IMG/VR virus record: IMGVR_UViG_3300031673_000346
Location: 1-29,536 of that record
From: a virus
DNA: 29,536 bases
Strand: one strand, 5' to 3'
A program made the position numbers and the translations under genes. Each line of letters begins with the position of its first letter. Within the stretch, counting starts at the first letter, position 1. A model generated the notes under the pieces. That model searched no databases. It saw only the letters and a list, made by a program, of their open reading frames with translations, and had not been told where the DNA came from. Positions 3,440 through 29,052 of the stretch are shown here, one piece after another.

Positions 3440-4566
3440 GCCGTTTTCGCCTCCGCTTGTGCTTGCGATTCCGCATCCGCCGTTAAAGCCATCGGCATAT
3501 TGTCCCTGACTGGCAGGCCGAGCAGCTCTATCGCCGAAAGGATAATCGCCGAATCGATTGTATTGATTTTGCCCGTTTTGACTTCGACGCTGTTATGTAT
3601 GGCCGAGATTATTATGCTGCACGTCCGCAGCCTGCCGGTTTGCGGCGTCTTTGCGATCCGTTTAAGCAGCCCAGCGCCGTCGCCGGTAAGTTTTAGTCCG
3701 CCGTACTCGTACAATTTCCGTATATCATCGGCTGTATAAAGTCCGCCGTCCTTGCCGCCGGCTGCGGCTAATTTATCCAGGTCAAGTATTTTCAAAAGTC
3801 TGGACCTGAACTGGTCCATAGATTCGTATCCCCGCCGCGTCGCCGGCTGCCGGATGGTTTCAAGGATATGGTTATTGCCGGCCAGTATGAGCGGCGAGCC
3901 GTTCTCGGAGATTATCTGGCGGAGTTGGTTAAGACAGACCGCAGACAGACTCGATGCCTCATCTATCAATACCGTCATCTCTCTGGTCCGCAGGTAAGCA
4001 TCGATGTTTGTCGCTATGGTTTTAAGGCTGCCGTGCTTGTCAATCGCCATCGCCTCGGCTATCCGGGCAAACAGGGCCGCCGAGCTCATCGTATCGTTGA
4101 GCTTGGCATATACGCTGTTTTTGCTTTGCTCGGCGTATTGCTGCAGGCATTCTGATTTGCCGTGCCCGGCGTCGCCGACGATAAGACTGATGCGTCCTTC
4201 CTGCGGTTTGCTGAACGATTCGGTGTTTCGTATTACCGTCAGTATCGCGCGGGCGACGGTCGTTTCGATGTACCCCGATTCTTTTACGCGACGGTTGCGT
4301 CTTTCATACCGATTGATAAAATCGGTCAGCTTGGCGCACAGCCCTTTTACATCGCCGCTGTATTTACCGGCAAGAAAATTGCTGATTTGCGTATCGCTTA
4401 CGCCGTTTTTTTTCGCAAGCTGCGACTGTGATATATCGTATTTTGTCAGGAAGTCTTTAACATTCCCGCGAAACACGTTCATCTCTGTGCTGTTCATATT
4501 CGGTATCCGTACCTCAATTCGCCGAGCTTCCTGCTCCATTCCTTGCTGGAGCCAGTTATCAGTCAT
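3436..4566 (-). CDS. MuB-like transposition ATPase (target-DNA activator)
   Basis: A 376-aa AAA+ ATPase. In Mu, MuB coats target DNA, delivers it to the transposase and provides target immunity. Residues about 38-66 form a helix-turn-helix (YDISQSQLAKKNGVSDTQIS), as in the N-terminal domain of MuB. The Walker A motif is GDAGHGKS at 131-138, Walker B is TVLIDE at 198-203, and a sensor-like LAGN follows about residue 229. The C-terminal third (TGRLRTCSIIISAI onward) matches the position of the MuB C-terminal helical domain. The start overlaps the transposase stop by eight bases, the order A then B as in Mu. At 376 aa it is longer than the 312 aa of MuB because of N- and C-terminal extensions. 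Confidence 0.92.
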   Translation of the reverse strand: MTDNWLQQGMEQEARRIEVRIPNMNSTEMNVFRGNVKDFLTKYDISQSQLAKKNGVSDTQISNFLAGKYSGDVKGLCAKLTDFINRYERRNRRVKESGYIETTVARAILTVIRNTESFSKPQEGRISLIVGDAGHGKSECLQQYAEQSKNSVYAKLNDTMSSAALFARIAEAMAIDKHGSLKTIATNIDAYLRTREMTVLIDEASSLSAVCLNQLRQIISENGSPLILAGNNHILETIRQPATRRGYESMDQFRSRLLKILDLDKLAAAGGKDGGLYTADDIRKLYEYGGLKLTGDGAGLLKRIAKTPQTGRLRTCSIIISAIHNSVEVKTGKINTIDSAIILSAIELLGLPVRDNMPMALTADAESQAQAEAKTA

Positions 4567-6553: not shown

Positions 6554-6987
6554 TTGATTGCCTTTGCCATTTCGATTGCCGCATCTTTCAGTTGGTCCAG
6601 CACAGCCGCCATGCCCACCAGGAGTTTCGGCATATCGGCCGATGGCGTGTATCCGTTTTGGAAATCCCCGCCCGGCCCGGTCATTACAGGCGGCGTTTCC
6701 GCCTGCGGCAGCGGCGGCGGTTCGATTACTGTCGCCCACTGCCCGTCGCAGAACGGTATATTGTTTTGCAGTGTGTATGGCAGGTACTTGTGCAGTATCC
6801 ACGCCCCGGAAAGTCCGGCGAACTGGACCGCGATAAACCCGCGTCTGCAAGCAAAGCAATATCCCTGATATGTCCTGTAGTCGCGGCCTTCGGCTCTGTA
6901 CTGCGGATACAGCAGCGGGTACGGCAGCGGCTTGCAGCACTGCGGGCAGATTACTCCGGCCTGTGTTTGTTTCGGCATAGATACCAT
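6550..6987 (-). CDS. Zinc-ribbon protein upstream of transposase
   Basis: A 145-aa protein. CPQC (residues 14-17, followed by an extra Cys) and CFAC (about 44-47) make a four-cysteine zinc ribbon. The middle is aromatic, then comes a Pro/Gly-rich linker (EPPPLPQAETPPVMTGPGG), and a C-terminal helix (LVGMAAVLDQLKDAAIEMAKA). The stop overlaps the transposase start by four bases, so the two are made together. The start at 6987 is preferred because cggaa lies about 8 bases upstream, while the ATG at 6978 has none. A possible role is a transposase cofactor or regulator, on context only. Confidence 0.7.
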   Translation of the reverse strand: MVSMPKQTQAGVICPQCCKPLPYPLLYPQYRAEGRDYRTYQGYCFACRRGFIAVQFAGLSGAWILHKYLPYTLQNNIPFCDGQWATVIEPPPLPQAETPPVMTGPGGDFQNGYTPSADMPKLLVGMAAVLDQLKDAAIEMAKAIK

Positions 6988-6998
6988 ATCTTTATTTC

Positions 6999-7066
6999 CG
7001 ATTTTCTATTTACTATTTTCGATTTTCAATTTTCAATTTTCTCTTCCTATACCCTCTTCCTATACC
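6999..7066. repeat. Composite tandem repeat (ATTTTC-type plus CTCTTCCTATACC-type)
   Basis: A gattttc/caattttc tandem tract is followed directly by ctcttcctataccctcttcctatacc. The second part recurs near 24862-24888. The repeat supplies the stop codon of the HTH gene (TAG at 7060-7062) and separates it from the zinc-ribbon gene. It belongs to the dispersed repeat set described in the findings. Confidence 0.75.
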
Positions 7067-7518
7067 TTGTTAACAATCATTGCGTAAATTCTGCCCTGCA
7101 GTCCCATCATCCGGGGAAATTCCTTTTTGAACCGTTCGATTGAGCGCCGGTCGGAATCATCGACCCTGCCGTCGGCGAAGATATCGAGTATTTCCTGCTC
7201 GACCCCGATTTGTGATCTGCGCATCTTTATCAGCGTCTCGAGCGAGCATTTAAGGTCCCCGCAGGTTTCAACCGGCACGCTGATTACCGATATATCGCCT
7301 GTTATAAGCTGTAGTATCCGCAGGTCGCGTGTCCGCCCGTACACCGTCCGCCAGATGACCGATGGTATTGTCGCCTCGCCGGACAGGTAGCGATAAATCT
7401 GCGACCCGCTTCGTCCGGTCAGGCTTGCCAGCTGCTTGACCGTCATCCCGGCGTCTTCCAGCGCCTGCGATAGTGTCAGGTTATCGTCCGACAATTCGTG
7501 ATCCTCTTGTTTGTGCAT
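7060..7518 (-). CDS. HTH regulator (XRE-like; Ner- or CII-like position)
   Basis: A 152-aa protein with an N-terminal helix-turn-helix (residues about 14-50: LSQALEDAGMTVKQLASLTG then SGSQIYRYLSGE). Next comes an IPSVIWRTVYGRTRDLRILQ block, which resembles the CII/CP76-type phage regulators. The C-terminal region is helical and charged (SLETLIKMRRSQIGVEQEIL). It sits upstream of the zinc-ribbon, transposase and MuB genes, where Mu-like phages carry a Ner-type control protein, so it probably regulates early transcription. The last two residues and the stop lie in a dispersed repeat. The start has ggaaa about 7 bases upstream. It could instead be the lysogeny repressor. Confidence 0.75.
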   Translation of the reverse strand: MHKQEDHELSDDNLTLSQALEDAGMTVKQLASLTGRSGSQIYRYLSGEATIPSVIWRTVYGRTRDLRILQLITGDISVISVPVETCGDLKCSLETLIKMRRSQIGVEQEILDIFADGRVDDSDRRSIERFKKEFPRMMGLQGRIYAMIVNKV

Positions 7519-7559
7519 CCCTGCGTTTCCTCAATCCGTTTCCTGTTTTCAATTTTTCC

Positions 7560-7643
7560 ACCACGAAGCTCACGAAGGCACACGAAGTTTTATATATACT
7601 TTATTATTTCTTTCTTCGTGTTTCTCTGTGCCCTTCGTGGTTA
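7560..7643. repeat. ACCACGAAG inverted-repeat element, copy 1
   Basis: Begins ACCACGAAGCTCACGAAGGC and ends with the near reverse complement cccttcgtggt, with an AT-rich centre (ttttatatatactttattat). A second copy at 8524-8607 is nearly identical over its first 45 bases. It could fold into a long imperfect hairpin. Here it lies between the HTH gene and a small zinc-ribbon gene. Confidence 0.85.
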
Positions 7644-7650
7644 ATTTTTT

Positions 7651-7848
7651 TCAAAACGGCGGATCAAAAATTTCCACTCTCGACCCGCACGGCAGTTTCC
7701 GGTACGGGTAATACTTTTTACTGGTCGGGTCTTCGCAGTATGTTCCCGCCGTCAGCCAGTGATTCTTATTGCAGTATGGACAGGCGACGACCCAGTAGTG
7801 CATCCCTTTTTTGCGTTTCAGAACAGCTTTAAGTAGTCTTAACGACAT
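7651..7848 (-). CDS. Small zinc-ribbon protein, 65 aa
   Basis: MSLRLLKAVLKRKKGMHYWV starts a small basic protein with a CPYC at residues 23-26 and two later single cysteines (YCEDP and PCGSR), a plausible four-cysteine metal site. It ends VEIFDPPF just before the ACCACGAAG repeat. No clear ribosome site is visible because an ATTTTC-type repeat lies directly upstream. It is one of several tiny Cys-rich proteins in this phage; the function is unknown. Confidence 0.6.
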   Translation of the reverse strand: MSLRLLKAVLKRKKGMHYWVVACPYCNKNHWLTAGTYCEDPTSKKYYPYRKLPCGSRVEIFDPPF

Positions 7849-7852
7849 AGTT

Positions 7853-8050
7853 TTATTTTCGATTGCCGATTTTCGATTTACGATTTATGACTTTCACCAG
7901 CAAATTCGCAATGCCCATCGCCATCTCGCTGATAATTTCATCTACGCATCGGCTGCATAATCCCGGGCTGAACCACCAGCATCCTCCAGGACACGGCTTA
8001 TCGTCTGTGCATCCGCAGATAATACATGTTTGTATTTTCTCTATTGCCAT
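7853..8050 (-). CDS. Small CxxC zinc-binding phage protein with repeat-derived tail
   Basis: A 65-aa protein. The first 37 residues carry a pattern found in many phages: TCIICGCTDDKPCPGGCWWF then LCSRC, with Cys pairs suited to a zinc site. The C-terminus VINRKSKIGNRK is encoded by an ATTTTCGATTT-type dispersed repeat that also supplies the end of the frame. This suggests that an original gene end was replaced by the repeat. ggat lies about 9 bases before the ATG. The family's function is unknown; the conserved Cys part argues for a real protein. Confidence 0.75.
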   Translation of the reverse strand: MAIEKIQTCIICGCTDDKPCPGGCWWFSPGLCSRCVDEIISEMAMGIANLLVKVINRKSKIGNRK

Positions 8051-8276: not shown

Positions 8277-8504
8277 TTAATCCGTGGTCTGTTTTTTTCT
8301 CCACATCCACAGCCCCTCTATCGCCAGGGCAAGAAATATCGCATCGCGAAGGCACAGGCTCAATATGCCGGCTTGCAGATGGATCCAGAATGACAGGGCG
8401 TTTGAAAACATCCAGACGATAAAACACGCCCGCAGCCTGCGATTATTAAGCAGAACGCCCGCTATTGCCAATATCATCGTAACTGTCCCGATTACCTCAA
8501 TCAT
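8277..8504 (-). CDS. Small membrane protein (PnuC-like or holin-like)
   Basis: A 75-aa protein with three hydrophobic segments (about 2-18 MIEVIGTVTMILAIAGVLL, 25-45 CFIVWMFSNALSFWI, 50-69 LCLRDAIFLALAIEGLW). It starts at MIEVIG, because ttggaaag sits about 5 bases upstream and the extra upstream codons come from the ACCACGAAG-repeat side. The pattern of 'LLNNRRLRACF-W-M-SN' and 'L-RDAIFL-L-I-GLW-W' resembles half of a PnuC-type transporter, a type also found as small phage membrane proteins. Lying next to the lysin-like gene, a holin-type role is possible. Confidence 0.65.
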   Translation of the reverse strand: MIEVIGTVTMILAIAGVLLNNRRLRACFIVWMFSNALSFWIHLQAGILSLCLRDAIFLALAIEGLWMWRKKQTTD

Positions 8505-8523
8505 TTTACTTTCCAATTTTTTC

Positions 8524-8607
8524 ACCACGAAGCTCACGAAGGCACACGAAGTTTTATATATGCTTTATTGTTTTTTCTTCGTGGCTCTCTGCTTTCTTCG
8601 TGGTAAA
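8524..8607. repeat. ACCACGAAG inverted-repeat element, copy 2
   Basis: The same element as at 7560-7643. It overlaps the 3' end of the lysin-like gene, so the last residues of that protein (about TFTTKKAESHEEKTI) are translated repeat sequence and the stop codon lies inside it. Confidence 0.85.
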
Positions 8608-9309
8608 TGTTTTTTTCCTTAATCCGCCACGGCGGATAAATTCTAAATTCTTAATTCCCCATCTGACCGCCTCATCGTGTCCGTCAAAGTACACATCGAG
8701 TCTGCCCGCTGTTATCGCCCCGCCCCGGTCGAGCACCGGCACAGGTTTGCCGTCGTTATATCCGGGGATTATTATCATTGTCCCGAATGGGATTGATTTA
8801 TCGGCAGCGCAAAACCTGTCGCCTTTTCGGATTCTATGTCCGCTGGCTGTAATGCCGTCGGCGAATCTGCCGCAGCACTTTGCGCACGGGCAGTATGCCG
8901 TTACCTTGTAAATAGAGACGGCGGCCCCGTGGGTGGGAGCCGCCGTTTCCCGGCTGCTGTCCGATCCGGCACTGGAAAGGAGGGGTTGGGCATTTTCGAT
9001 TTTCGATTTTCGATTTTCGATTTCATCCCGACTCTCGACTCTCGGCTCTCGACTTATTTCATCGGCGATTGCCGCAATTGTTAGTGGGGCGGCGACGTTG
9101 CATGCCTGTTGACCGCCGCCGCCCGCTCCGTATGGGGTTTTTATTTTGACATCAGCGGCCGCTGCCGCCGCGATTATCGACTGCCGGCTGGATGAGAAGC
9201 AGCCGGCAGCGTAGGAGAAAACAATGAAACCTATCATGGCCGCGATAAAGATTACCATCCTTTTCGCGTGCCGCGTCTTTGCTTTGCCCGTATAAGTTCG
9301 TTTGTTCAT
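8554..9309 (-). CDS. 3D-domain lysin-like lipoprotein
   Basis: A 251-aa protein. The N-terminus is basic, then hydrophobic (MVIFIAAMIGFIVFSYAAGC) with a possible lipobox at AAGC (Cys37), so it may be membrane-anchored. Residues about 133-220 are a 3D domain, the fold of MltA-type lytic transglycosylase cores: VTAYCPC, then ASGHRIRKGDRFCAADKSIP, VPVLDRGGAI and RLDVYFDGHDEA. The three aspartates are about D170, D194 and D205. It is probably a peptidoglycan-cleaving lysis protein. Residues about 85-107 (VESRDEIENRKSKIENAQ) and the tail from about 219 onward are repeat-derived. The four CxxC-spaced cysteines near 140-146 are unusual. Confidence 0.8.
   Translation of the reverse strand: MNKRTYTGKAKTRHAKRMVIFIAAMIGFIVFSYAAGCFSSSRQSIIAAAAAADVKIKTPYGAGGGGQQACNVAAPLTIAAIADEISREPRVESRDEIENRKSKIENAQPLLSSAGSDSSRETAAPTHGAAVSIYKVTAYCPCAKCCGRFADGITASGHRIRKGDRFCAADKSIPFGTMIIIPGYNDGKPVPVLDRGGAITAGRLDVYFDGHDEAVRWGIKNLEFIRRGGLRKKTFTTKKAESHEEKTIKHI
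8992..9056. repeat. In-frame tandem repeat inside the 3D-domain gene
   Basis: Four ATTTTCG units, then tttcatcccg and actctcgactctcggctctcgactt. The tract is read through in frame and encodes the peptide SRVESRDEIENRKSKIEN-like stretch on the minus strand. The 7-base unit is not a multiple of three, so unit-number changes would shift the frame. Confidence 0.85.
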
Positions 9310-12551: not shown

Positions 12552-12557
12552 TTGATA

Positions 12558-12615
12558 TTTGGTAGTTTTGATTTGGTAGTTGAAACTTAGAACTCAAAAC
12601 TTAGAACTCAAAACT
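12558..12615. repeat. Tandem repeat before small terminase (TTTGGTAGTT and AACTTAGAACTCAA)
   Basis: Two ttggtagttttga/tttggtagtt units, then AACTTAGAACTCAA twice with a 14-base period (12584-12612). It stands directly before the ATG of the small terminase and displaces any ribosome site. A TTG at 12580 opens a longer in-frame reading that would translate the repeat (KLRTQNLELK). Confidence 0.8.
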
Positions 12616-13173
12616 ATGAGAAGAACTCACAGTACAATAGATTCTTTACCCGCCGATATCCGGGCGGTCATCACCGCTATGGTCGTCGATGCCGTGTGGC
12701 CTGAAGGTTGCAACCCGGTTGATTCCGGCGGTAAGCCGACTTATGAAGATATCGTCCTGTATCTTGCGTCAAAGGAGCTATCCGTCAGCCGTTCTGCGAT
12801 CGGCCGCTGGGCCAAGGGTCTGCGTGTCTTTGAGCGGATGCGGACGGCGGCGGGGCTGGCCAAGCAGATTATGGCCGATGTCAGGGATGAGGACGCCTCG
12901 GCGGCGCAGAAAGCGGCGGCCGAGATAATCACCGCCCAGATTATCGACATGGCCTCGTCGGAGGATTTAAAGCCCAAGGATATTTCGATGATTGCCGGGG
13001 CCGTGCGGGATTGCAGCAACGTCGCGATGGCCGCCGATAAATACCGCCGCCAGCAGATAAAGAGCAAGGCCGAGGCGGCGGATAAAACCATCACTGAAAT
13101 CGCAAAGAAGAAAAAACTTGATCCCGAAACGCTCAAGATAATCCGCGAGCAGGTCTATGGAATCGTAGCATGA
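12616..13173 (+). CDS. Small terminase subunit (Mu gp27 / DUF3486 family)
   Basis: A 185-aa protein that starts MRRTHSTIDSLPADIRAVI. The family pattern is clear: 'R-x-S-x-I-D-x-L-P-x-x-I', then PTYEDIVLYLASKE and LSVSRSAIGRWAKGLR, a HTH with the S-R-S-A-x-x-R signature. A long helix-rich tail follows (AAEIITAQIIDMASSEDLK, KKLDPETLKIIREQV). It recognises phage DNA for packaging with the large terminase. The stop overlaps the large-terminase start (ATGA). A longer start from the TTG at 12580 would add repeat-encoded residues and is rejected. Confidence 0.85.
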   Translation: MRRTHSTIDSLPADIRAVITAMVVDAVWPEGCNPVDSGGKPTYEDIVLYLASKELSVSRSAIGRWAKGLRVFERMRTAAGLAKQIMADVRDEDASAAQKAAAEIITAQIIDMASSEDLKPKDISMIAGAVRDCSNVAMAADKYRRQQIKSKAEAADKTITEIAKKKKLDPETLKIIREQVYGIVA

Positions 13174-14430: not shown

Positions 14431-16803
14431 ATGATAAAGCAGATTTCCAACATAATCAGAAACCTCGGCAGGCTAAAGGATATCACACTGCCGCTCTCAA
14501 AGTTCGGTCAGGCCTTTGATATGGGTATTGACACAACATCCGGCGCATCCGGCAGGCCGTCCATGCCCTACAACCAGGTTGACTGGGTGTGGCGATGCGT
14601 CAACCTGATTCTCGATGTCTGTCAGGATATCCAGCCGATAATTTCCGCAGCGGATGACAATATTATCGAGTCCGGTCCGGCCTTTGATTTCTTCTTTAGT
14701 AACCCCGACACTTCCTTCGCATCTTTCCTTCGCGATACGTCCGGTTTCCTGCTTTTGCATCGCGAGGCATATTGGATATTTACCGAGACCGACAAGATTG
14801 TCCCTACAAAGATTACTGTCGTCGGCCGCGACCAGATTACTCCGGAGGTCAAAAACGGAATTCTTCTCGGCTATAAATTCCAGGATGGGGCGGGCAGGGA
14901 AATCCCTCTATTTATCGAAGATGTTTGGCCGCTGATAAATTTCAACCCTGACAATCGCTTTCGCGGGGCAGGTCCGCTGGATGCGGGCAAGCTTGCGATA
15001 TCCAGCGCATACCAGGCCACACAATACAACGAGGCCACGATGGCCAACGGCGCACGCATCGGCACTATCCTTACCGTGCCCGCCGGCGTCAAGCTCGATG
15101 ACAACGAAATAAAGGCGATGCGGGCGCAGTTCGAAGCCCAGCAGGCCGGGGCAAGAAACGCCGGCAAGACATTTATCGCCACCGGCGGCATTGATGTAAA
15201 AACCGTCAGCCAGACGATGGCTGAATTGCAGATGATAGACCTGCGCAAATTCGACGCCGCTGCGATATGTGCGATGTTCGGCGTCCCGGCCGAGATGGTC
15301 GGCTTAAATCCCGAAGCCCAGTATGCCCACGGCCCGGCGTCGCTGCGGTTTTTCCTTTATACGATTTCGCCTCTGCTCTCTTTTATCGCATCGGGCATCA
15401 CCGCAGGCATCCTGCGCCGGTTCAGGTTCCGTATCGACAAGCACAAATCCGCTCCGCAGCAGGTCTCTAAAATTTACTGCGGCGCAGCGCAAAAGGTGAC
15501 TGCAAAGCAGGCCTATCGCCTGCAAAAGCACAAGGCGATTTCCGCCGGCGCCTTGCTGTTTTTCTGGTTTGATACCGATTCGCACCCGGCGCTGCAGGAT
15601 ATGCTTCGCGATCGCGCGGCCAAGATGCTTGAATTCAACAAGGCCGGAATTCCTATCAACCCGATTATCGACGCCGGCGACCTGCCGTTCGAGCACGTCC
15701 CGTGGGGCGACGACTGGTTTATCCCGATGGGTCAGGTCCCGGCAAGGTGGATATTGGAAGGCGGTCCTGAGCAGCTCATCCCGCCTCCGCTGCCCGAAGG
15801 CGGCGAAGAGGAAGAGCCACAGCCGAAGGCTGTCGATGATTCAATCGTCCATCGTCAATCGTCAATCGTCAATGAGAAGGATGACAGCAGGCGCAGCCGT
15901 ATATGGCTTAAGTACATCGCATCATTTCAGGCGATAGAATTGCAGTATGCCTCGGCGGTACGGCGGTTGTTCCTTGACCAGCGAAGAGAGCTTATTGCCA
16001 AGCTCGAAGCCGCATTAAAAGATTCCGGCTACCAGCCTAAAATAATCGACAATCGTCAATCATCAATCGTCAATAAGGCGGATACATCCGCCATAGTTGC
16101 CCGCGTCGTTTTCGACATCAAAAAAGAAAATGGCAAACTGAAAGTATTTCATCGGGTCTTTTATGAGCGGTCCGCAAAACTCGGCGCCGCTCAGGCCGCG
16201 TTCGAGGCCGGCCAGTCTGTTCAGCAGGCGGCGGCATCCGCAGCGCAGCAGTTAAACAGCCGGACAGTCCGCAGCGCACTTTCCGTATCAGCGCACAAAA
16301 TCAGCAAGGTCAACTCCACCACAGCCGATCGCATAGCCAATACGCTGCGGCGGGGTCTGGATAGCGGCGAAAACCTATCTCAACTTACCGGCAGGATAAA
16401 AGACACGCTCGATACCACGCGTCCCCGGGCGCAGATGATTGCCCGCACGCAGGTTTCCGGCGCGGTATCGGCGGGCCGGCAGGCCGGTATGCAGGCTGCC
16501 GGCATCGAAATGAAGGGCTGGCTCTCGGCCCGCGACAAAAACGTTCGTCCTGAACACAGAAAAGCCGAGGCCGACTATGCTTCGGGAATTCCCATCAATC
16601 AGTCCTTTGTTGTCGGCGGCGAGGCTCTTATGTATCCCGGCGACCCATCCGGTTCGGCGGCGATGATAATCAACTGCCGGTGTATGCAGATCGCTTTGGC
16701 GGCCGCCGGCAAGTCTTTCGATTTGGATTATCATGACAGAGCAAAAATCCTGTCTGAAACCGATATTAAACCGCATTTAACGGAGGTTCAAAATGCCACC
16801 TGA
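14431..16803 (+). CDS. Portal protein fused to MuF head-morphogenesis domain
   Basis: A 790-aa protein. Residues about 1-450 form an HK97-type portal (NQVDWVWRCVNLILDVCQDI, later DVWPLINFNPDN, PLDAGKLAISSAYQATQYNE, VPAEMVGLNPE). A Pro/Glu linker follows (PEGGEEEEPQPK). The C-terminal part is MuF/SPP1 gp7-like: RAQMIARTQVSGAVSAGRQA about 665-683, then GWLSARDKNVRPEHRKAE and the closing INCRCM about 746-751. In Mu and most relatives these are two genes; here one frame carries both. Two repeat-derived peptides (SIVHRQSSIVN about 471-481; IIDNRQSSIVN about 537-547) flank the start of the second part. The tail overlaps the protease start by 11 bases. Confidence 0.9.
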   Translation: MIKQISNIIRNLGRLKDITLPLSKFGQAFDMGIDTTSGASGRPSMPYNQVDWVWRCVNLILDVCQDIQPIISAADDNIIESGPAFDFFFSNPDTSFASFLRDTSGFLLLHREAYWIFTETDKIVPTKITVVGRDQITPEVKNGILLGYKFQDGAGREIPLFIEDVWPLINFNPDNRFRGAGPLDAGKLAISSAYQATQYNEATMANGARIGTILTVPAGVKLDDNEIKAMRAQFEAQQAGARNAGKTFIATGGIDVKTVSQTMAELQMIDLRKFDAAAICAMFGVPAEMVGLNPEAQYAHGPASLRFFLYTISPLLSFIASGITAGILRRFRFRIDKHKSAPQQVSKIYCGAAQKVTAKQAYRLQKHKAISAGALLFFWFDTDSHPALQDMLRDRAAKMLEFNKAGIPINPIIDAGDLPFEHVPWGDDWFIPMGQVPARWILEGGPEQLIPPPLPEGGEEEEPQPKAVDDSIVHRQSSIVNEKDDSRRSRIWLKYIASFQAIELQYASAVRRLFLDQRRELIAKLEAALKDSGYQPKIIDNRQSSIVNKADTSAIVARVVFDIKKENGKLKVFHRVFYERSAKLGAAQAAFEAGQSVQQAAASAAQQLNSRTVRSALSVSAHKISKVNSTTADRIANTLRRGLDSGENLSQLTGRIKDTLDTTRPRAQMIARTQVSGAVSAGRQAGMQAAGIEMKGWLSARDKNVRPEHRKAEADYASGIPINQSFVVGGEALMYPGDPSGSAAMIINCRCMQIALAAAGKSFDLDYHDRAKILSETDIKPHLTEVQNAT
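15841..15873. repeat. CAATCGTCAAT-type repeat at portal/MuF joint, copy 1
   Basis: Tcaatcgtccatcgtcaatc then gtcaatcgtcaat: four near-identical 8-10 base units, read in frame as SIVHRQSSIVN. Same unit as near 2930 and 3100. Confidence 0.8.
16044..16074. repeat. CAATCGTCAAT-type repeat in portal-MuF gene, copy 2
   Basis: Aatcgacaatcgtcaatcat then caatcgtcaat, read in frame as IDNRQSSIVN. It lies about 200 bases after copy 1. Confidence 0.8.
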
Positions 16804-20668: not shown

Positions 20669-21252
20669 TGATCACCCTTGAAATGGGGACGGAGTTTCCC
20701 GCTGTGCTTGCCAGGTTGAGCTCTATGGGCCGCAATGTCTTCGCGGCGGTATCTGCCGGCCTTGAAAAAGGAGTCAAGGTCGTCGCAGGCAGGGTGTCCA
20801 GTGATTACCTGACCGGTCAGGCGCTGAAGGCTCGCAGCGGCATGCTGCGTAAATCGATTGATGGCTGGCTCGATTCACCCACAGGCGCTGTCGTCGGCAT
20901 CCCTGAAGGCTCGCCGGTGGAGCATTACAAATGGCTGCTCGGCGATGAGTCAAAGACTATTACGCCGAAAAAGGGAATGTTCCTGTCAATTCCGATCGGT
21001 GAAAACCTGACCGGCTCCGGCGTGCCGAAATATACATCGCCGCGACAGGTGGAAGGCGGCTTTTTTATCAGGACAAAAGGCCGTCTTTTGTTCGGCTACA
21101 AAAAAGGCAAGAAGGGAAAGTTCCGACCGCTCTTTACGCTGGTTAAGAGTGTTCTGGTTCAGGGCAGCGGCGCCTTATATGACGGCGTCATGGAAAATCT
21201 GGACTCTGTTACCGGCTCGATACAAACCGAAATTAACAAGGCGATTGAATAA
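20665..21252 (+). CDS. Tail-completion / neck protein (HK97 gp10-like)
   Basis: A 195-aa protein. The signature of this group is visible: a helical N-terminus (AAVSAGLEKGVKVVAGRVSS), then LTGQALKARSGMLRKSI, followed by GIPEGSPVEHYKWLLGDESK and a basic GYKKGKKGKFRPLF. It joins the head to the tail terminator. ATG overlaps the connector stop. Confidence 0.8.
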   Translation: MMITLEMGTEFPAVLARLSSMGRNVFAAVSAGLEKGVKVVAGRVSSDYLTGQALKARSGMLRKSIDGWLDSPTGAVVGIPEGSPVEHYKWLLGDESKTITPKKGMFLSIPIGENLTGSGVPKYTSPRQVEGGFFIRTKGRLLFGYKKGKKGKFRPLFTLVKSVLVQGSGALYDGVMENLDSVTGSIQTEINKAIE

Positions 21253-22352
21253 TGGACGCTCCTGTAATCACACATGCATCCGTTGCCGACGGTATTGTTA
21301 CACTGACACTCACCGGCGAAGGCGTTGTCTCTATTTACAGCCGTCTATCGGGAGTCCCCGCCTGGACTCTTTCCGCGACCGCCGAATCGACCGATGATCC
21401 TATCGAGATTTCCGGCCTGACCCCCGGCCGAATGTATGAATTTTACGCCGTCGCGAAAATAGAAGAATTAGGTAACGAAAAAGTTATAAATGGTGAGTTT
21501 GGCACTGACCTGACGGGCTGGATAGCGAACGGTTGGATTTGGGCGTCAGGATTTGGGCCCGATTTAGGCGTTGCCAAGTTTAATTATCAGGAAGACGAAG
21601 GGACTATATATCAGGAAATAGCAACCGAGGCGGGGAAAACATATCGCATTTCGCGAAGCAGTATGCTCGGCACTCCCATTTATATTATCGGCGGGCAGGA
21701 GATATTGATAACCGAATATCCTTTCTTTTACACTGCGGACTCGTCGATGGTCGCCATTCAGGCCAAAGCGGATAGTTGGGGGGATGCTTATATTGATAAT
21801 GTTTCCTTCAAAGAAGCGATTACCTTTTATTCCCCGCCGTCGGGCGTCGTCAGCGTTTTTGTTTGCGCCGACCAGCTTGCCACCGACGCCGGTATGCTTG
21901 CCCGGCTTGAGGCCTGGGCGGTCGGCATCCTTTCGGCGCTTCAAAATGGCGGCGCGAACCTGTTTCGCTATGTCGAACCGTGGCGGTATCAGATAGGCTT
22001 CGGCAATTCCGGCGTCGAATCGTTCGAGCGATTTGCGCCTTTTGCTTATGTTAAGGCCGAGTTCGCCCGCGCCGAACGCGAGGGCGGCTATGACCTTAAT
22101 ATGCGCGTAAGGCTCACTGTCTCTGTCGGCCAGAAAAGTCCAAAGCCTGATGGCTCCGCCCGTATCGGCGATGGGACACGGATTGGCGTCTCGCGAATGA
22201 CCGACCTCGTCCGGGCGGCCTTTGAAGGCGTCCATCCGGGGACGGGATTCAACTGTGATGATTTTTATTTCTCCGACTGGTTCGAGACAGTGGCTATGAC
22301 GGATAAGTACGCCGCCGAGCTTGCCTTCGAGGCAAACTGGATGACTCAGTGA
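21252..22352 (+). CDS. Tail terminator with Fn3 and carbohydrate-binding-like insert
   Basis: A 366-aa protein. Residues about 1-75 read as a fibronectin type III domain (VADGIVTLTLTGEGVVSIY, EISGLTPGRMYEFYAVAKIE). About 78-190 resemble a CBM domain (VINGEFGTDLTGWIANGWIW, IYQEIATEAGKTYRISRSS, AYIDNVSFKE). The C-terminal half (LARLEAWAVGILSALQNGGA to the FYFSDWFETV end) is a tail-terminator-like alpha/beta domain. Ordinary terminators are about 130-180 aa, so the first half is an add-on that would decorate the tail neck. Junction at about residue 200. Confidence 0.7.
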   Translation: MDAPVITHASVADGIVTLTLTGEGVVSIYSRLSGVPAWTLSATAESTDDPIEISGLTPGRMYEFYAVAKIEELGNEKVINGEFGTDLTGWIANGWIWASGFGPDLGVAKFNYQEDEGTIYQEIATEAGKTYRISRSSMLGTPIYIIGGQEILITEYPFFYTADSSMVAIQAKADSWGDAYIDNVSFKEAITFYSPPSGVVSVFVCADQLATDAGMLARLEAWAVGILSALQNGGANLFRYVEPWRYQIGFGNSGVESFERFAPFAYVKAEFARAEREGGYDLNMRVRLTVSVGQKSPKPDGSARIGDGTRIGVSRMTDLVRAAFEGVHPGTGFNCDDFYFSDWFETVAMTDKYAAELAFEANWMTQ

Positions 22353-22420
22353 ATTAAGAATTAAGAATTAAGAAATTAAAAATAAACCCGTGTAAATCTG
22401 TGTCTGAAAATTGAAAATGG
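22353..22420. repeat. Composite repeat A+B before tail-tube gene
   Basis: Aattaagaattaagaattaa (A block), then aaataaacccgtgtaaatctgtg (B block), then a gaaaattgaaaatg part. It lies directly before the ribosome site (ggag) of the tail-tube gene. The same A then B order recurs at 25287 and 28033. Confidence 0.8.
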
Positions 22421-22428
22421 AGTAACCT

Positions 22429-23340
22429 ATGGCAACGGTAAATAACAGAGTCTTTATGCCGCAGGCGACCGTGATAAACGGCGTCTCTGTCGGCGGCGCC
22501 ACAACCGTCCGCATCTCGGCCGGTTTTGAAAACATCATCCGCTCAAGCCCGGACGGCCTGCAGCTTCCCACTGTTGACCGGGACTGTCAGTACGTTCGCG
22601 GCACAGTCGTTATCGAGGACTGGCCGGATGCTGTCGGTCTGATTACCGGCACGGTCGGAACGATGGTTTTTTACGAGCGAAAATCCGGCGTCGTCGCCGC
22701 GACCGGTTACACCAAGCATACCATCACCGCCCCCGTCATCCACAACATCCGGCTGGCCCTTACCAAGGGCGGCAACGCAATATTGACCTTTGACTTCGAA
22801 TGCAGGTTCGCCTCCGAGACGGCCACGATAAACGATGTCTGGGTTCCTACCGATTCGCAGGCCGCCCCGACATATCTGCCCGCCGCTCGCGGCGGCTGGC
22901 GGATTGTCTCCGCCCTTTTCAACAGCGCCACTTCTATCTATCACCTGATGAGCTTCAGCTTTAATCTGACGATTCCGGTAATAAAGGAATGCAACGATAG
23001 CGACGTCGGTTATACGGCTGTTGACGCCTTACCTGAGGTCGGGATGTCGGCGACCGGCTCTCTCGGTTTTCAGGATGCCGCTATTGCAGCAGATCAGCTT
23101 CTTGTAAATACGCTTCTGGTCGCATCCAGGGCCTCTTTAGTAATTACCGCGAGGCAATCCGGCGGCGCTGCCGATAAGGTTATCACCCTTGCCAATGTTC
23201 AGTTCGGCGCCGGTGACGTGAGCGGAGCCGGAAGAACGCCTGACGCCTTTACGTTGAATTTCGAGATTGCCAACGACCCATCAGTCCCGCTTACACTGGC
23301 CGGGGACAACAAGATAATCACCATCGCCGACGCGGCGTAA
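22429..23340 (+). CDS. Major tail (tube) protein
   Basis: A 303-aa protein with beta-rich composition. It has MPQATVINGVSVGGATTVRI, GTVGTMVFYERKSGVVAATG and SFSFNLTIPVIKECNDSD, then ALPEVGMSATGSLGFQDAAI. It sits between the terminator and tape-measure genes, where the tail-tube protein is expected, and it is the only candidate in the tail module. A ggag lies about 6 bases before the ATG. No contractile-sheath gene is seen, so the phage probably has a siphovirus-type tail. Family assigned from position and shape, not motif. Confidence 0.75.
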   Translation: MATVNNRVFMPQATVINGVSVGGATTVRISAGFENIIRSSPDGLQLPTVDRDCQYVRGTVVIEDWPDAVGLITGTVGTMVFYERKSGVVAATGYTKHTITAPVIHNIRLALTKGGNAILTFDFECRFASETATINDVWVPTDSQAAPTYLPAARGGWRIVSALFNSATSIYHLMSFSFNLTIPVIKECNDSDVGYTAVDALPEVGMSATGSLGFQDAAIAADQLLVNTLLVASRASLVITARQSGGAADKVITLANVQFGAGDVSGAGRTPDAFTLNFEIANDPSVPLTLAGDNKIITIADAA

Positions 23341-23367
23341 TAGCCGCTGGCCGCTGAAAGCTAAATT

Positions 23368-24786
23368 ATGTCCAAAGAAGATGTAAATATATATGTAGGC
23401 ACGCCCGGCGCCGATCAGTCCAAGCAGAATTTGGACTCTGTCGGTCAGTCCGCCCGCAAAATGGGCCAGGATGTATCCGGGTCCGGCAAAGGCGCCGCCG
23501 ATGCCACAAAAGAACACGAGTCCTCGCTGCAAAAACTGGCGCTGCGGTATATCGGTATTCAAAAAGTCATTCAGCTCGCAACCCAGGCTATTCGTGAACA
23601 GATAGAGGCGATGAAGGAGCACGCCGAGATTGCCCAGAGACAGCAGCAGGCCCTGCTGCGTCTGCAGTTCCTGGGTGATTTTTTTACCGAGCAGCCGCAG
23701 GCTCGCAAAGAAGTCGCTGCGATGGCCGAATTTGGCCGCAGGCCGTTCGAGGAAGTCGCTGGGGCCTGGTACAACCTAAAGAGTAAGGCCGGCGCTATGA
23801 CGCCCCAGCAGCGTCAGGCTATCCTGAAAGAGGCCCTTGAGACAGGCCGCACCGATCCATCAATGCCGCTCGATACGCTTGTCGATATGTTCAGCCTGTT
23901 CGCCAAGCAGACCGGGGAAACCGACGCCAACCGGATTCAGAATATCTTACAGCAGACAATTACCGAGGCCGGCGGCGGCGGGGCTGATGTGGCAAAGTAT
24001 ATGCCGCAGTTCCTGCCTGTCGGTATGGCCGGAGGCCTCTCCGGCGCCGAGTCGGCAGGCCTGTGGGCTTATGTTACCACCCAACTGTCAGAGCCATCTA
24101 TCGCCACAACAGGCCTGAAGGCGACGTTTATGGGCCTCCAGGGCAAGGGCAGCCCGGAATCACAAAAAGTGCTCGCAAAGTTCGGCATCACGCCTCAGAT
24201 GTCGTTCTCTGAAAAGATACAGCGGCTTTCCGCCGCTCGCGCATCCGGCGGTCTGGGCCTTGGCGAAGCCGAGCAACTGGCCGGCCGCGAAGGGGCGGCG
24301 GTATTGCTCTCTATGCTCAAGGCTCCCGGAGAGATGCAGCGGACGATGGGTCTTGTCGTCGGCGCCGATCGCGGCGATATCGATATCACCCGGCAAAAAA
24401 TAGAGCAGATTTTCGGCGCCGACGAAATTGCAAAAACCGAAGAGGATATCCGCCTGCTTGATGTCACAATAGAAAACCAAAAAGCTGCAAGCGGCCGGCC
24501 GATGAAGGGCGAACAGGTAGTCAAAGAAACAGAGATGATAAACCGAAGCAAGGGCACGCCAGAGGCTGCTATAAAGTTTGCATCCTATGCACAACGGCTT
24601 CTGATGTCGCTGGGTTTGTCGTCCGAAGCGCTGATGCCTCAAGAAGGAAGAGAACGTTTCATCAAAGAAGGCGTGCTGCCTGCGGATGTCGGCGGTATGA
24701 CCACGACAGTCGTTAACGACAACAGCAATAATATCAATTACCAGCGTCCGCAGCAGCTTGGTTCTTCGCCGCGTTCGCTGCCTTAA
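23368..24786 (+). CDS. Tape measure protein (short)
   Basis: A 472-aa protein. The N-terminus is polar, and the middle is helical with Gln and Ala runs (HAEIAQRQQQALLRLQFLGD). It has the TP901-type block (TTGLKATFMGLQGKGSPESQ, then AREGAAVLL-like AGREGAAVLLSML). The tape measure sets tail length; at about 1.5 angstrom per residue it implies a tail near 70 nm. That is short for a siphovirus. No chaperone pair with a frameshift precedes it. The C-terminus is Ser/Asn/Gln-rich and disordered. Confidence 0.85.
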   Translation: MSKEDVNIYVGTPGADQSKQNLDSVGQSARKMGQDVSGSGKGAADATKEHESSLQKLALRYIGIQKVIQLATQAIREQIEAMKEHAEIAQRQQQALLRLQFLGDFFTEQPQARKEVAAMAEFGRRPFEEVAGAWYNLKSKAGAMTPQQRQAILKEALETGRTDPSMPLDTLVDMFSLFAKQTGETDANRIQNILQQTITEAGGGGADVAKYMPQFLPVGMAGGLSGAESAGLWAYVTTQLSEPSIATTGLKATFMGLQGKGSPESQKVLAKFGITPQMSFSEKIQRLSAARASGGLGLGEAEQLAGREGAAVLLSMLKAPGEMQRTMGLVVGADRGDIDITRQKIEQIFGADEIAKTEEDIRLLDVTIENQKAASGRPMKGEQVVKETEMINRSKGTPEAAIKFASYAQRLLMSLGLSSEALMPQEGRERFIKEGVLPADVGGMTTTVVNDNSNNINYQRPQQLGSSPRSLP

Positions 24787-24799
24787 AAAACAGGAAGAG

Positions 24800-24890
24800 A
24801 ATGAGGAAGAGTGATAGAAAATTAAAAATGAAAAATAGAAAATGGAAAACCAAAACACCCTCTTCCTATACCCTATTCCTATACCCTATT
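24800..24890. repeat. Repeat tract before distal-tail gene
   Basis: An AT-rich gaaaat/aaaaatg tract followed by ccctcttcctataccctattcctataccct. The ctcttcctatacc unit also occurs at 7041-7066. An aggaagag copy at its left end is the reverse complement of ctcttcct, so a hairpin is possible. The distal-tail gene starts just after it without a clear ribosome site. Confidence 0.75.
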
Positions 24891-24896
24891 TAAAAA

Positions 24897-25286
24897 ATGG
24901 CAACACAAATTACTACATTATTAGGTAACGAGCTTAAAACGACCGAAGCGCCTCGCGTTATGGATCGCCAGTTTGCCTCTTTTCCCGGCGCCCACGGCAT
25001 TACATCTATAACGATGGGTTCTCGCGGCTGGCAGCTCGTCTTTACCGGTAAGGTCCGCCTCGGCGGAGCAAACTACGCCGCCGCCCGCGCTGCTGCCCAG
25101 ACCGCAATCTGGAACATCGCGGCGATGACGGCATGGGATGCCGGTGATTATACATACCAGAACGTAACTTATTACAACTGCGTCTGGACTAATTTTCGCG
25201 TGCTTGGCGGTGAGAAAACTTACGTTTACACGTCCAACGGATATATCACCGTCGAATTCACAATCACTCTGCAGGGACTTTTATAA
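24897..25286 (+). CDS. Distal-tail-like protein
   Basis: A 129-aa protein that starts MATQITTLLGNELKTTEAPR. SITMGSRGWQLVFTGKVRLG and DAGDYTYQNVTYYNCVWTNF, then TVEFTITLQGLL form a beta-rich body. It lies between the tape measure and the large hub-like protein, the usual place of the distal tail or baseplate protein. No ribosome site is seen because the repeat tract sits at the start. Assigned from position and size. Confidence 0.65.
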   Translation: MATQITTLLGNELKTTEAPRVMDRQFASFPGAHGITSITMGSRGWQLVFTGKVRLGGANYAAARAAAQTAIWNIAAMTAWDAGDYTYQNVTYYNCVWTNFRVLGGEKTYVYTSNGYITVEFTITLQGLL

Positions 25287-25352
25287 ATCAAGAATGAAGA
25301 ATGAAGAATTAAGAAATAAAAAAATCCGTGTTAATCCGTGTTAATCCGTGGT
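25287..25352. repeat. Composite repeat A+B before tail hub gene
   Basis: Agaatgaagaatgaagaatt then aagaaataaaaaaatccgtgttaatccgtgttaatccgtg: A block followed by three B units. The last B unit gives a GTG that opens a slightly longer reading of the hub gene. Confidence 0.85.
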
Positions 25353-25356
25353 TGAA

Positions 25357-27561
25357 ATGGTTTCTGATTCGCAAAAACTTAGCCGAACCGCCCAGCCGCT
25401 TGTAGTCGAGTACAAGCAGGGCTTCGGCACGCCGCCCGCATACCCGGCATACTGGACGCCGCTGTTTGGCGCCGCTGTCGAGCGTATTATAATCAATCAC
25501 GGCACAACCCCCAACTCGGCTATCATCCGGTTTAATGACCTTTACTGGCAGCAGGCCCGTTCTGTCCGCTGGGGCGATATGATACGCATCCGTACCGACC
25601 AGCCCGCTCGCGGCGACGGCACGCCGTCTCCGGGGCAGGCCCGCACAGTGGTCTTTATCGGCTTTGTAACCGCGTGGCAATCATCGTACTGCGGCGGCGA
25701 TGAAAAACGCCAGGCATGGGAAAAGAACAGCTTTGTTTGCGGCGACTTCCGCTGGCTGATTTCCGCCACAAGTCCTGTTTACGGCCAGTGCGCCAGAAGC
25801 CCGGATGATTACTGGAATTTCGGTTACTCGAATCAGACCACAAAGCCGACCGCCACATTTATGTCGGGCCTGCGATGTATTTTTAACCCGGATGGCAGGC
25901 CGAATAAAGACCGTACAGATGCGACCGCCACAATAAACAATATCGAGTTTGATTATCCCGTCTTTGCCAACCCCGACCGCCGCGCAACCGGCGCTGTCGC
26001 CGAGTATTGGACCTGCCGACAAATGGTCCGTTATCTGCTCGGCCCGAACTTTAACGCCGCGTTCGCGTACCTGCCTATTACCAACCCGGCAATCCTGCCA
26101 GGCATGGAGCACAAAGACTGGGACAGGGTAATCAACTCGGTCAATGTTGATGGTCTGGATGTCATCTCGGCGATAGGGCTTATCTGTAAACATATCGGTT
26201 GGTCGCTGCGTGAGGAATATTTTGACAGTTGGTCTGCGCCTGTGGGTCTTGTCTTTTATAAACCCGGCGCCGCCGCCGGCTATATCCGAGATGCAAACAA
26301 CCGAACCATCCTTCATCGCCCGCACGCCCCAGCCGTCGGCGATTATATCAACCCAGCCGTCGCCGCAGGCGTCAAGCTGCTCTGGTCGATGGACATCGAC
26401 GAGGATATTACCGGCGTCGTCAACAATCCCTGGGGCCTTGGCGCCCCGGATAAGTTCGAGGCGACGTTTAACTTAGTTCCGGGCTGGCAGGATTCCGACC
26501 TCGTCCCCGATTCAGCATCCAGCTACGCCAACCTGTTCAAGACTGAAGCTGAGATTCAGGCCGAAGCTAATCCCAATCAGTGGAGTTTCTTTAACAAATA
26601 CCACGCGCGGGGAGCGGCGTTTCTCCGCGATGTCGGCCGCAAATGGGTTCTTAATGAATCCGGCAAATACTCCGCGACCGCCTACGATCGCGGCGTCCCC
26701 TTTGACTTTGCGGCGGTCCTGCCGCCCCAGTATATTCTTTATAACGGCAAGCGAATTTACGCCCCGTTTAACCGTTCCTTTTTGAATTGTCTGACATTCG
26801 ATAAAGACTCGCTGAATTCAGTCGGACTTCGCGTCGAGTTCTCTTTTGATAGCGGCGCTACATGGCAGATTATCTCCGCGATGATAGAAAACCTGCCCGG
26901 CGAATGCGGCATTCGCATCACCGAGCCGAATCTGTGCGAGATGCTCGATATCGCAAAGGGCAGCATCGCATCCGGTCCGCTTGCCGGTAAGGAGCTTGAT
27001 TACTGGACCAGCCTTGCCGATGACAAGGTTAATTCCCGCGTCTTCAAAGACGGACAATGGAAAACCCGTGTCCGCGTCACGGCAACTGTCCAGATGGACC
27101 AGCGTCTGCGTCGTCAGTCCCCGCCGGCGGATGGTTGCGGCTCGCCGTTTTATCAGCGGCGGATTCTGGATTTCTCCGATAAATATGGCATCCAGCAGCG
27201 CACAACCGCCAGCGTCTTTACGGCATCGGGCCTGCCCGCATGGAACACTGACTATACATTGCAGCTCGAAGCCCACGTCGATGCCCTGCGTAAGGCCAAT
27301 CAGGATATGAGTATCAACGGGCGCTTTACATTCGAGCGTCTCTGGCTCGGCGATGGGTCCGGCTGTCCCGACTTTGCCTGCGGCGATTGTATCGAGTGTA
27401 TTACCGGCAGGGATTACAGTCTGGCCGCTACCATTGATAAAAACAAGGTGGTCTTTCCTGAAATAATCCAGATTACCTTTTTTCCCGAAGCCCAAAAGAT
27501 GAATCTTGTCACCCGCGACCTGCGTCTGGCCGAGTTCGTCCAATGGAGCGGCGATAAATGA
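25357..27561 (+). CDS. Tail hub / baseplate protein
   Basis: A 734-aa protein from the ATG; a GTG three codons earlier lies in the repeat and is less likely. It has a mixed beta fold with RIIINHGTTPNSAIIRFNDL and WGDMIRIRTDQPARGDGTPS, a Trp/Tyr-rich middle, and VDGLDVISAIGLICKHIGWS. It ends VFPEIIQITFFPEAQ, then LRLAEFVQWSGD. Size and place after the distal-tail-like gene fit a hub or tail-associated baseplate protein. The first 230 residues look like a conserved head. Exact class is unsure. Confidence 0.7.
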   Translation: MVSDSQKLSRTAQPLVVEYKQGFGTPPAYPAYWTPLFGAAVERIIINHGTTPNSAIIRFNDLYWQQARSVRWGDMIRIRTDQPARGDGTPSPGQARTVVFIGFVTAWQSSYCGGDEKRQAWEKNSFVCGDFRWLISATSPVYGQCARSPDDYWNFGYSNQTTKPTATFMSGLRCIFNPDGRPNKDRTDATATINNIEFDYPVFANPDRRATGAVAEYWTCRQMVRYLLGPNFNAAFAYLPITNPAILPGMEHKDWDRVINSVNVDGLDVISAIGLICKHIGWSLREEYFDSWSAPVGLVFYKPGAAAGYIRDANNRTILHRPHAPAVGDYINPAVAAGVKLLWSMDIDEDITGVVNNPWGLGAPDKFEATFNLVPGWQDSDLVPDSASSYANLFKTEAEIQAEANPNQWSFFNKYHARGAAFLRDVGRKWVLNESGKYSATAYDRGVPFDFAAVLPPQYILYNGKRIYAPFNRSFLNCLTFDKDSLNSVGLRVEFSFDSGATWQIISAMIENLPGECGIRITEPNLCEMLDIAKGSIASGPLAGKELDYWTSLADDKVNSRVFKDGQWKTRVRVTATVQMDQRLRRQSPPADGCGSPFYQRRILDFSDKYGIQQRTTASVFTASGLPAWNTDYTLQLEAHVDALRKANQDMSINGRFTFERLWLGDGSGCPDFACGDCIECITGRDYSLAATIDKNKVVFPEIIQITFFPEAQKMNLVTRDLRLAEFVQWSGDK

Positions 27562-28031
27562 GCAAAATCGTAAAAATTCAGTTCGCCGTACCCGCCGGTT
27601 ATGTCCCCGGCGACTGGGCGAACCTGCATACAAACGGCGGGGCCGGTGATATCGACTGGGATACGCCCGCGACCAATGAGCGGTTCGAGTTATTTCCCGG
27701 CGGCGGCGGTATGTACGGCTTCGGCCACACCCCGTTCGGCCATTCGCCTTTCGGCCACGGTCTATCGGTCAGATGTCCGGGTTTCGGCCATTTGCCATTC
27801 GGCCATTATCCATTCGGTCACGGCACGGCGGTAATTCTCGCCCGGTATCCGGTGAGCGACTGTGGCGACTGGAAATTCGGGTTTAAGGTCTATGACGCCC
27901 TTGGCAATCCGCATACCGGCTCGCCGGGACTGGCCGAGCTTACCGTCCACGTAGCGCCCGCATCGCCTGCGGGCCTGAAAAAGAACTCTTATAACAGCGA
28001 AACCAATGTGCTGACTTTGGATGTGGCATAG
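27558..28031 (+). CDS. PFGH-repeat His-rich tail protein
   Basis: A 157-aa protein. Residues about 52-90 hold a Gly-Phe-His repeat: GFGHTPFGHSPFGHG, then GFGHLPFGHYPFGHG, with 6 PFGH or FGH units. Flanking parts are beta-like: FAVPAGYVPGDWANLHTNGG before and WKFGFKVYDALGNPHTG after. Repeated His at even spacing suggests metal binding, such as the iron site of a tail-tip spike, but this is inference. The ATG overlaps the hub stop (ATGA), so it is part of the tail module. The rest resembles Fn3-like or tip domains. Confidence 0.75.
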   Translation: MSKIVKIQFAVPAGYVPGDWANLHTNGGAGDIDWDTPATNERFELFPGGGGMYGFGHTPFGHSPFGHGLSVRCPGFGHLPFGHYPFGHGTAVILARYPVSDCGDWKFGFKVYDALGNPHTGSPGLAELTVHVAPASPAGLKKNSYNSETNVLTLDVA

Positions 28032-28032
28032 A

Positions 28033-28092
28033 GAATTAAGAATGAAGAATTTAGAAATAAAAAAATCCGTGTTAATCAGTGTTAATCTGTGT
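28033..28092. repeat. Composite repeat A+B before zinc-ribbon gene
   Basis: Gaattaagaatgaagaattt then agaaataaaaaaatccgtgttaatcagtgttaatctgtg. Same A and B order and orientation as at 22353 and 25287. The start GTG of the next gene is its last B unit. Confidence 0.85.
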
Positions 28093-28938: not shown

Positions 28939-28957
28939 TGTCCGCCGCAGGCGGACA
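28939..28957. repeat. REP-like palindrome, copy 1
   Basis: TGTCCGCCGCAGGCGGACA is a perfect hairpin with a three-base loop, preceded by AACTT. A second copy (AACTTA then GTCCGCCGCAGGCGGA) is at 29032-29052, and a shorter relative is at 8623-8636 in the lysin gene tail. Confidence 0.8.
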
Positions 28958-29031: not shown

Positions 29032-29052
29032 ACTTAGTCCGCCGCAGGCGGA
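29032..29052. repeat. REP-like palindrome, copy 2
   Basis: Second copy of the 28939 hairpin, followed by TGCCCCGTTTTAGCGGG, another short stem-loop (CCCG/CGGG). Together these look like dispersed palindromes rather than a riboswitch; no conserved riboswitch core was seen. Confidence 0.75.

Follow-up and report, generated by a model that had tools for sequence, protein, structure and literature searches.

Why should one and the same two-part repeat fill several junctions between neighbouring genes of a single phage? The question is posed by IMG/VR virus record IMGVR_UViG_3300031673_000346, a complete virus record of 29,536 bases that was analysed over its whole length (hereafter, the window). 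Three of its spacers carry a block of tandem heptamers (A) followed by a block of tandem decamers (B), and a preliminary description had read these A+B composites either as mobile sequences or as homology tracts that help to exchange tail modules. The window is a Mu-like transposable phage: in addition to a Mu-type transposase and a MuB-like ATPase (Table 1), it encodes Gp27, a terminase, a portal-MuF fusion and a capsid protein. Judging from the best genome matches of the terminase, which are Phycisphaerales metagenome-assembled genomes (66% identity), the host is probably a planctomycete. We consider it likely that both blocks are fragments of host-type planctomycete intergenic repeats, a hybrid of which was copied to three phage junctions, and that these repeats are mobile or recombining.

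Three composite spacers

In all three spacers (22353-22428, 25287-25356 and 28032-28092), heptamers of the type GAATTAA/GAATGAA precede decamers of the type AATCCGTGTT in identical order and orientation. The succession of the two blocks, as first described, is real: pairwise identities range from 84 to 93%, with self-BLAST matches between copies 2 and 3 (25291-25350 and 28032-28091; 93% over 60 bp, E 8e-19), copies 1 and 3 (22348-22403 and 28030-28082; 84%, E 4e-7) and copies 1 and 2 (22351-22403 and 25292-25341; 85%, E 4e-7). The A block, an AT-rich series of tandem 7-nt units that has no inverted partner in the window, starts at the upstream stop codon in each of the three copies (TGA/ATTAAG, TAA/ATCAAG and TAG/AGAATTAAG), and the A+B elements are therefore flush with both gene ends. 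That the composites end at or near a start codon, as had been stated, is correct in so far as B stops at or close to the next start; in copy 1, however, the B block is degenerate (CCCGTGTAAATCTGTGTCT) and is separated from ATG 22429 by a leader bearing a Shine-Dalgarno (SD) site. Copy 3 itself provides the GTG start (28089) of a cysteine-containing open reading frame (ORF) of 55 aa, and no recognisable tail gene follows. Intrinsic terminator sites are listed in none of the three spacers on either strand, and Rfam models had no match in the window or in G001, the nearest relative by terminase (71% identity; tail gene order as in the window). A promoter scan returned 11 sites where 7.5 were expected, of which the sole one at an A+B spacer lies on the minus strand (28048-28075).

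The same junctions in related phages

At orthologous junctions, related phages frequently have next to nothing: at 12231/12616, 21252/22429, 22429/23368, 23368/24897 and 24897/25357 (genes are named by their coordinates), the relatives possess 0-20 nt, overlapping genes or other elements. At 21252/22429, the spacer measures 2 nt in L086, 11 nt in L093, 19 nt in L096 and 18 nt in G001 and contains no repeat. At 24897/25357, the genes overlap in L086, and G001 carries a B-type fold-back (AACCACAGATTAACACAG..loop..TCAGTGTAAATCAGTGAAAATCTGTGGTT) without A+B; palindromic elements of G001 also stand at 22429/23368 and 20057/20665, junctions without an element in the window. The junction 23368/24897, a fourth repeat-bearing spacer of the window, is 2 nt long in L086 and consists of overlapping genes in G001. 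Before gp27, G001 has AGACTAT heptamers, L017 has heptamers of the GAAGTTA type, and L093, L096 and L086 have none. Altogether, genes abut or overlap at most compared junctions of L086, L093 and L096 (e.g. TAATTATG, 2 nt from stop to start), and L085 has spacers of other kinds. Two spacers of L085 (11994-12111 and 12992-13162) display a further repeat type, CTGCCTTTAAGGTAG / GTGCCTATAAGGCAC palindromes. The spacer between the capsid gene and 19139 is retained in all nine relatives compared there, L096 having a much shorter version; in the window, it contains a GC-rich terminator-like hairpin with a T-tract.

Independent gain of different elements at shared tolerant sites best explains why these junctions are differently filled; the nearest relative shares 71% identity in the terminase, and no empty site is close enough in sequence for target duplications to be visible. 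The suggestion that the repeats may be mobile is thus supported, since the junctions are empty or hold other families in relatives, the composite is present three times in the phage, and B is chromosomal in the host order.

The repeat families in chromosomes

In the order of the nearest prophage host, an 18-mer of the B family is found in 46 of 148 genomes (up to 14 occurrences each); none of the 148 contains the reversed pattern. The A pattern occurs in nine of these genomes; here, the reversed control carries no information, as reversal of GAATTAA only yields a rotation of the same unit. In several host-order genomes, A arrays begin 0-2 nt past a stop codon. A search for the A+B unit in the host chromosome and related prophages had been proposed as a check. 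Units of both families turn up in host-order genomes; searches of 85,000 genomes and of IMG/VR for the exact composite, and of 161 host-order genomes for a relaxed form, gave no further occurrence. BLAST of A+B and of a second repeat of the window, the CACGAAG element (Table 1), against 50,697 phage records gave no match, and A+B has a single partial match of 30 bases among plasmids (an E. coli plasmid, E 4e-3). A literature search for the literal repeat sequences brought up no relevant paper.

Composites of a comparable build exist in G060, a genome of the host order, in which heptamers and B decamers adjoin at about ten sites; composites that include the AACTCAA family always have the same relative orientation. 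The G060 decamers are mostly unpaired and lie closer to stops than to starts (median 62 nt vs 285 nt); the density of B units is highest in convergent spacers (0.94 per kb vs 0.26 in divergent ones). In the spacers of this genome (L195-L254), decamers (AATCCGTG), nonamers (CTCTGTG), GGCC and CCCGCGAAAGCGGGAAT-type hairpins and AACTCAA heptamers are chained in fixed relative orientation; these chains are mostly antisense and near gene 3' ends.

Complete fold-back elements

What the complete form of such repeats may look like is indicated by G353, an A-rich planctomycete, of which 783 kb with 83% coding DNA were sampled; the gene calls behind the chromosome counts are simple ATG-to-stop ORFs, and distances to starts are approximate. 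In G353, 324 heptamer arrays are intergenic vs 61 in coding DNA. Neighbouring arrays are inverted in 90 of 94 pairs, compared with a mean of 48 and a maximum of 57 after shuffling of partners, and the purine arm leads in 81 spacers and follows in two. Similar palindromic cores are bordered by arms that differ in family from copy to copy, while the two arms of any one copy agree: CAATTAA, GAATTAA, AGAGTTT and GTAGTTGG arms surround GTGGAGTTTGA..TTCGCGAAGCGAA..TCAAACTCCAC-like cores. Two of the spacers fold with z-scores of -6.5 and -9.7. The arrays are drawn to stops, with 55% of them within 10 nt of the upstream stop (random 26%; median 7 nt), and only 12% lie within 10 nt of a start (random 26%; median 37 nt). 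Their density is similar in tandem, divergent and convergent spacers (3.1, 2.9 and 2.2 per kb), which speaks against a function tied specifically to starts or ends. Heptamer-armed fold-backs occupy a large share of the intergenic DNA of G353 (L293-L332; e.g. L303:395-570 and L298:15435-15605).

Fold-back elements are also carried by the phage relative G001 (AACCACAGATTAACACAG..ATCTGTGGTT). The G001 elements have CCAC..GTGG ends resembling REP tags (repetitive extragenic palindromic sequences), and no link to a transposase was seen.

Origin of the composites

The preferred account, according to which the blocks are pieces of host-type repeats, may be put as follows. Many complete elements are palindromes that fold back on themselves, with tandem heptamers or decamers as the 5' arm, the reverse complement as the other arm and a short core between the two. 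The phage presumably took repeats from host DNA, and they may survive where they are harmless, i.e. at gene junctions and in inter-domain linkers. The A+B spacers would be hybrids, in which family A supplied the 5' arm and family B the 3' arm, and later copying may have carried the hybrid to additional junctions of the phage genome; within the phage there are three copies of A+B and two of the CACGAAG palindrome. The repeats would most likely have been copied by recombining with one another or by template switching between them, perhaps aided by a trans-acting enzyme that recognises hairpins. The fixed order and the sense orientation would follow from arm geometry (the 5' arm follows the stop, the 3' arm precedes the next start). 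The nearness to start codons would follow from the compact gene order, because the original junctions were 0-20 nt long. For the phage itself, the repeats presumably have no function.

Several observations weigh against this account. The exact composite turned up in no other searched sequence, so that copying from host to phage is not directly seen. G353 belongs to the same phylum, but its membership of the host order is not demonstrated. The three A+B copies do not fold better than shuffles (z 0.8, -0.2 and -0.1) and their arms lack partners; to speak of two arms is therefore our interpretation. In G060, just one of 25 neighbouring arrays is inverted, which shows that the fold-back form is not universal, and the decamers favour gene 3' ends and one orientation (antisense 37:10), where they conceivably have a function. 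Finally, mobilisation by RAYT/IS200-type enzymes was considered: at 13 Y1 loci inspected, repeats lie near some, and no flanking element is shared, so that this hypothesis is unsupported.

We suggest only tentatively, and with more doubt than confidence, that planctomycetes carry a hitherto undescribed mobile superfamily of fold-back elements, the tandem 7- or 10-base arms of which would switch family in concert around a shared core, insert flush with stops, spread into temperate phages and recombine into hybrids such as A+B.

Alternative readings

The repeats might instead serve as translational leaders that substitute for SD sites, as has been proposed for the TAACTGA repeats of Beggiatoaceae. 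All three A+B copies terminate at or near a start. A hand-made list of 25 starts, from which four misplaced coordinates had been excluded, includes about 14 with an SD-like motif; only one of these belongs to the six repeat-preceded starts (12616, 22429, 24897, 25357, 28089 and 6987), compared with about 13 among the remaining 19. Six genes are too few, however, and missing SD sites are also expected if translational coupling of the genes preceded the insertion. Since, moreover, the same genes are repeat-less in relatives, and the G353 arrays shun starts, hug stops and are nearly as dense in convergent spacers, such a role appears improbable.

Proximity to stop codons, the strong predicted hairpins of complete elements and the high density of G060 B units in convergent spacers could alternatively point to action at gene 3' ends, as terminators, mRNA-stabilising hairpins or DNA structures. 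Against this, arrays are just as dense in the divergent spacers of G353, which contain no gene 3' end; the A+B of the window does not fold and lacks a listed terminator-like site, unlike the spacer behind the capsid gene; and orthologous junctions hold different families. We regard a 3'-end function, too, as unlikely.

Selection for the exchange of tail modules, among phages or with host copies, was the second proposal of the preliminary description, and here the comparison with relatives gives no support: relatives without A+B keep the tail gene order across the junctions that hold A+B in the window. It is true that several copies in the same orientation stand at module-like borders and that recombination between copies 2 and 3 would presumably remove or swap 25357-28031. 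The nearest relative, however, switches near 19.6-20.1 kb, from G001 in the head region (capsid 73% identity, 19647 62%) to L085/L086/L096 in the tail region (20665 64%, 22429 58%, 25357 49%); no A+B is present at this switch, and no switch was seen at the A+B borders. As no other searched phage has A+B, there is no known exchange partner, which leaves selection for exchange unsupported. A set of 80 related viral contigs (1.02 Mb) contains nine intergenic arrays of 7-, 10- or 14-base units, eight of which are in L002 and L004, both among the closest to the phage; this suggests that repeat carriage tracks host lineage rather than tail modules. Similar repeats, furthermore, occur in the early region, before gp27 and within coding linkers; the pattern is thus general in the phage and not confined to the tail, and a specific placement before tail-gene starts is not borne out. 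Nor are the surrounding genes established as tail genes: the term rests solely on position, as proteins 21252, 22429, 23368 and 25357 had no match in a PHROG search and proteins 24897, 25357 and 27558 none in a Pfam search. Relatives of protein 25357 were found by tblastn in L086 and G001; a peptide-pattern search of viral contigs gave none. Taken together, an exchange function is very unlikely. Chance, i.e. weak tandem repeats arising from AT-rich spacers in which single heptamer arrays are short, is as good as refuted by the counts: the match between copies 2 and 3, the reversed B control and inverted pairing far above shuffles.

Relation to known repeats

Heptamers of the Xanthomonas (GGGAATC) and Nostoc (GGGGA(C/T)T) kinds are mostly intergenic (Rehm et al. 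2015, PMC4692102); those of Xanthomonas lie 28 nt from the upstream ORF vs 160 nt from the downstream one, frequently form inverted pairs, differ in array length between close relatives and are found on none of the Xanthomonas plasmids (PMC4692102). The repeats described here share the 7-nt units, the intergenic location, the position nearer the upstream gene end and the inverted pairs (in G353), but their units are AT-rich, belong to many families, have no quadruplex motif and are phage-borne; they are not members of the G-rich heptamer family, only of the wider class of intergenic heptamers. The TAACTGA direct repeats of Beggiatoaceae, where canonical ribosome-binding sites are rare, stand just upstream of starts and are scattered over unrelated bacteria (MacGregor 2015, PMC4679880). 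The repeats of the window likewise include heptamer direct repeats in short spacers adjoining starts, by the geometry of those spacers; the unit is a different one, the link to the stop codon is stronger here (in G353), and phage relatives are repeat-less at the same junctions.

REPINs, or REP doublets, are associated with RAYT transposases (Bertels and Rainey 2011, PMC3116915), and GTAG/CGTC REPs have been described (PMC3733652). The elements of G001 and G353, not the A+B of the window, resemble them as short mobile intergenic palindromes of inverted repeats; they differ in that the arms are tandem 7- or 10-mers of many families instead of one conserved REP, and that Y1 genes are not consistently flanked. 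In comparison with miniature inverted-repeat transposable elements, inverted arms are present in the complete elements. As far as the tandem heptanucleotides of Calothrix and long simple sequence repeats are reported in the papers citing them (Mrazek et al. 2007, cited in PMC4679880 and PMC4692102), the surplus of 7-nt units in intergenic DNA is shared, whereas an entire composite copied to several gene junctions within a single phage is a difference. The phage elements are hence a variant of the known kind of heptamer repeats and mobile palindromes and not a new category.

Heptamers beside gene ends have repeatedly been read as regulatory; junctions with and without them in phages illustrate that repeats can come to lie beside a start simply because genes are tightly packed. 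Because a phage of temperate type carries host-type repeat elements, phages could spread such repeats. In a planctomycete chromosome, arms that covary around a shared core offer a testable case for how arrays originate and move, a question that has stood since the excess of heptamers was first noticed.

Other arrays in the window

The repeat pair reported for a fourth spacer is real: its CTCTTCCTATACC block (24860-24885) matches 7041-7066 at 96%, and the spacer folds better than shuffles (z -2.9). In the spacer before gp27, the 3' arm consists of AACTTAG/AACTCAA heptamers flush with the ATG; the arms of 19 nt are 79% complementary, and folding is weak (z -1.1). The portal-MuF linker (gene 14431-16803) is a tolerant insertion site, in which three related phages have different in-frame heptamer arrays: those of the window are listed in Table 1, L094 has GAAAATG/GAAAATC heptamers (2725-2751) and G001 CCAGAGA heptamers (reverse complement, 20737-20757) in the same region of the portal gene.

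Table 1. Repeat arrays of the window and its transposition genes
Feature	Position	Strand	Remarks
A+B copy 1	22351-22428	+	GAATTAA x3-4 from the stop codon of 21252-22352, degenerate B, GGAG leader, ATG 22429
A+B copy 2	25284-25356	+	GAATGAA/GAATTAA heptamers, GAAATAAAAAA, 3x AATCCGTGTT, GTGGTTGAA, ATG 25357
A+B copy 3	28029-28092	+	93% identical to copy 2 over 60 bp
Fourth repeat spacer	24787-24896	+	GAAAATx heptamers, inverted pair GGAAGAG..CTCTTCC, 13-mers CTCTTCCTATACC
Hairpin spacer before gp27	12552-12615 (array 12563-12616)	+	TAGTTTTGATTTGGTAGTT / AACTTAGAACTCAAAACTA
Two TCAATCG heptamer arrays	15841-16086 (15841-15873, 16044-16074)	+	in frame, portal-MuF linker
Heptamers GAAAATT/GAAAATC and two GGTATAGGAAGAG 13-mers	6988-7066	-	fill the spacer between 7060-7518 and 6550-6987
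CACGAAG palindrome, complete	7526-7651	-	arms 28 nt, -32 kcal/mol, z -7.1
Further similar array	7855-7886		
CACGAAG element, second copy	8492-8615	-	85% identical to the first
Heptamer arrays ATTTTCG, CGACTCT	8992-9054	-	in frame, linker of 3D-domain protein
MuB-like ATPase	3436-4566	-	
Mu-type transposase	4559-6562	-	

One arm of the second CACGAAG palindrome encodes the C-terminus of the 3D-domain (lytic-type) protein 8554-9309, whereby the gene is extended. Protein 27558-28031 contains a 15-base in-frame repeat (TTCGGCCAC..., encoding FGHxPFGH) at 27720-27817, and a palindrome, TCCGCCGCAGGCGGA, occurs twice 3' of the last genes (28939-28957 and 29038-29052).

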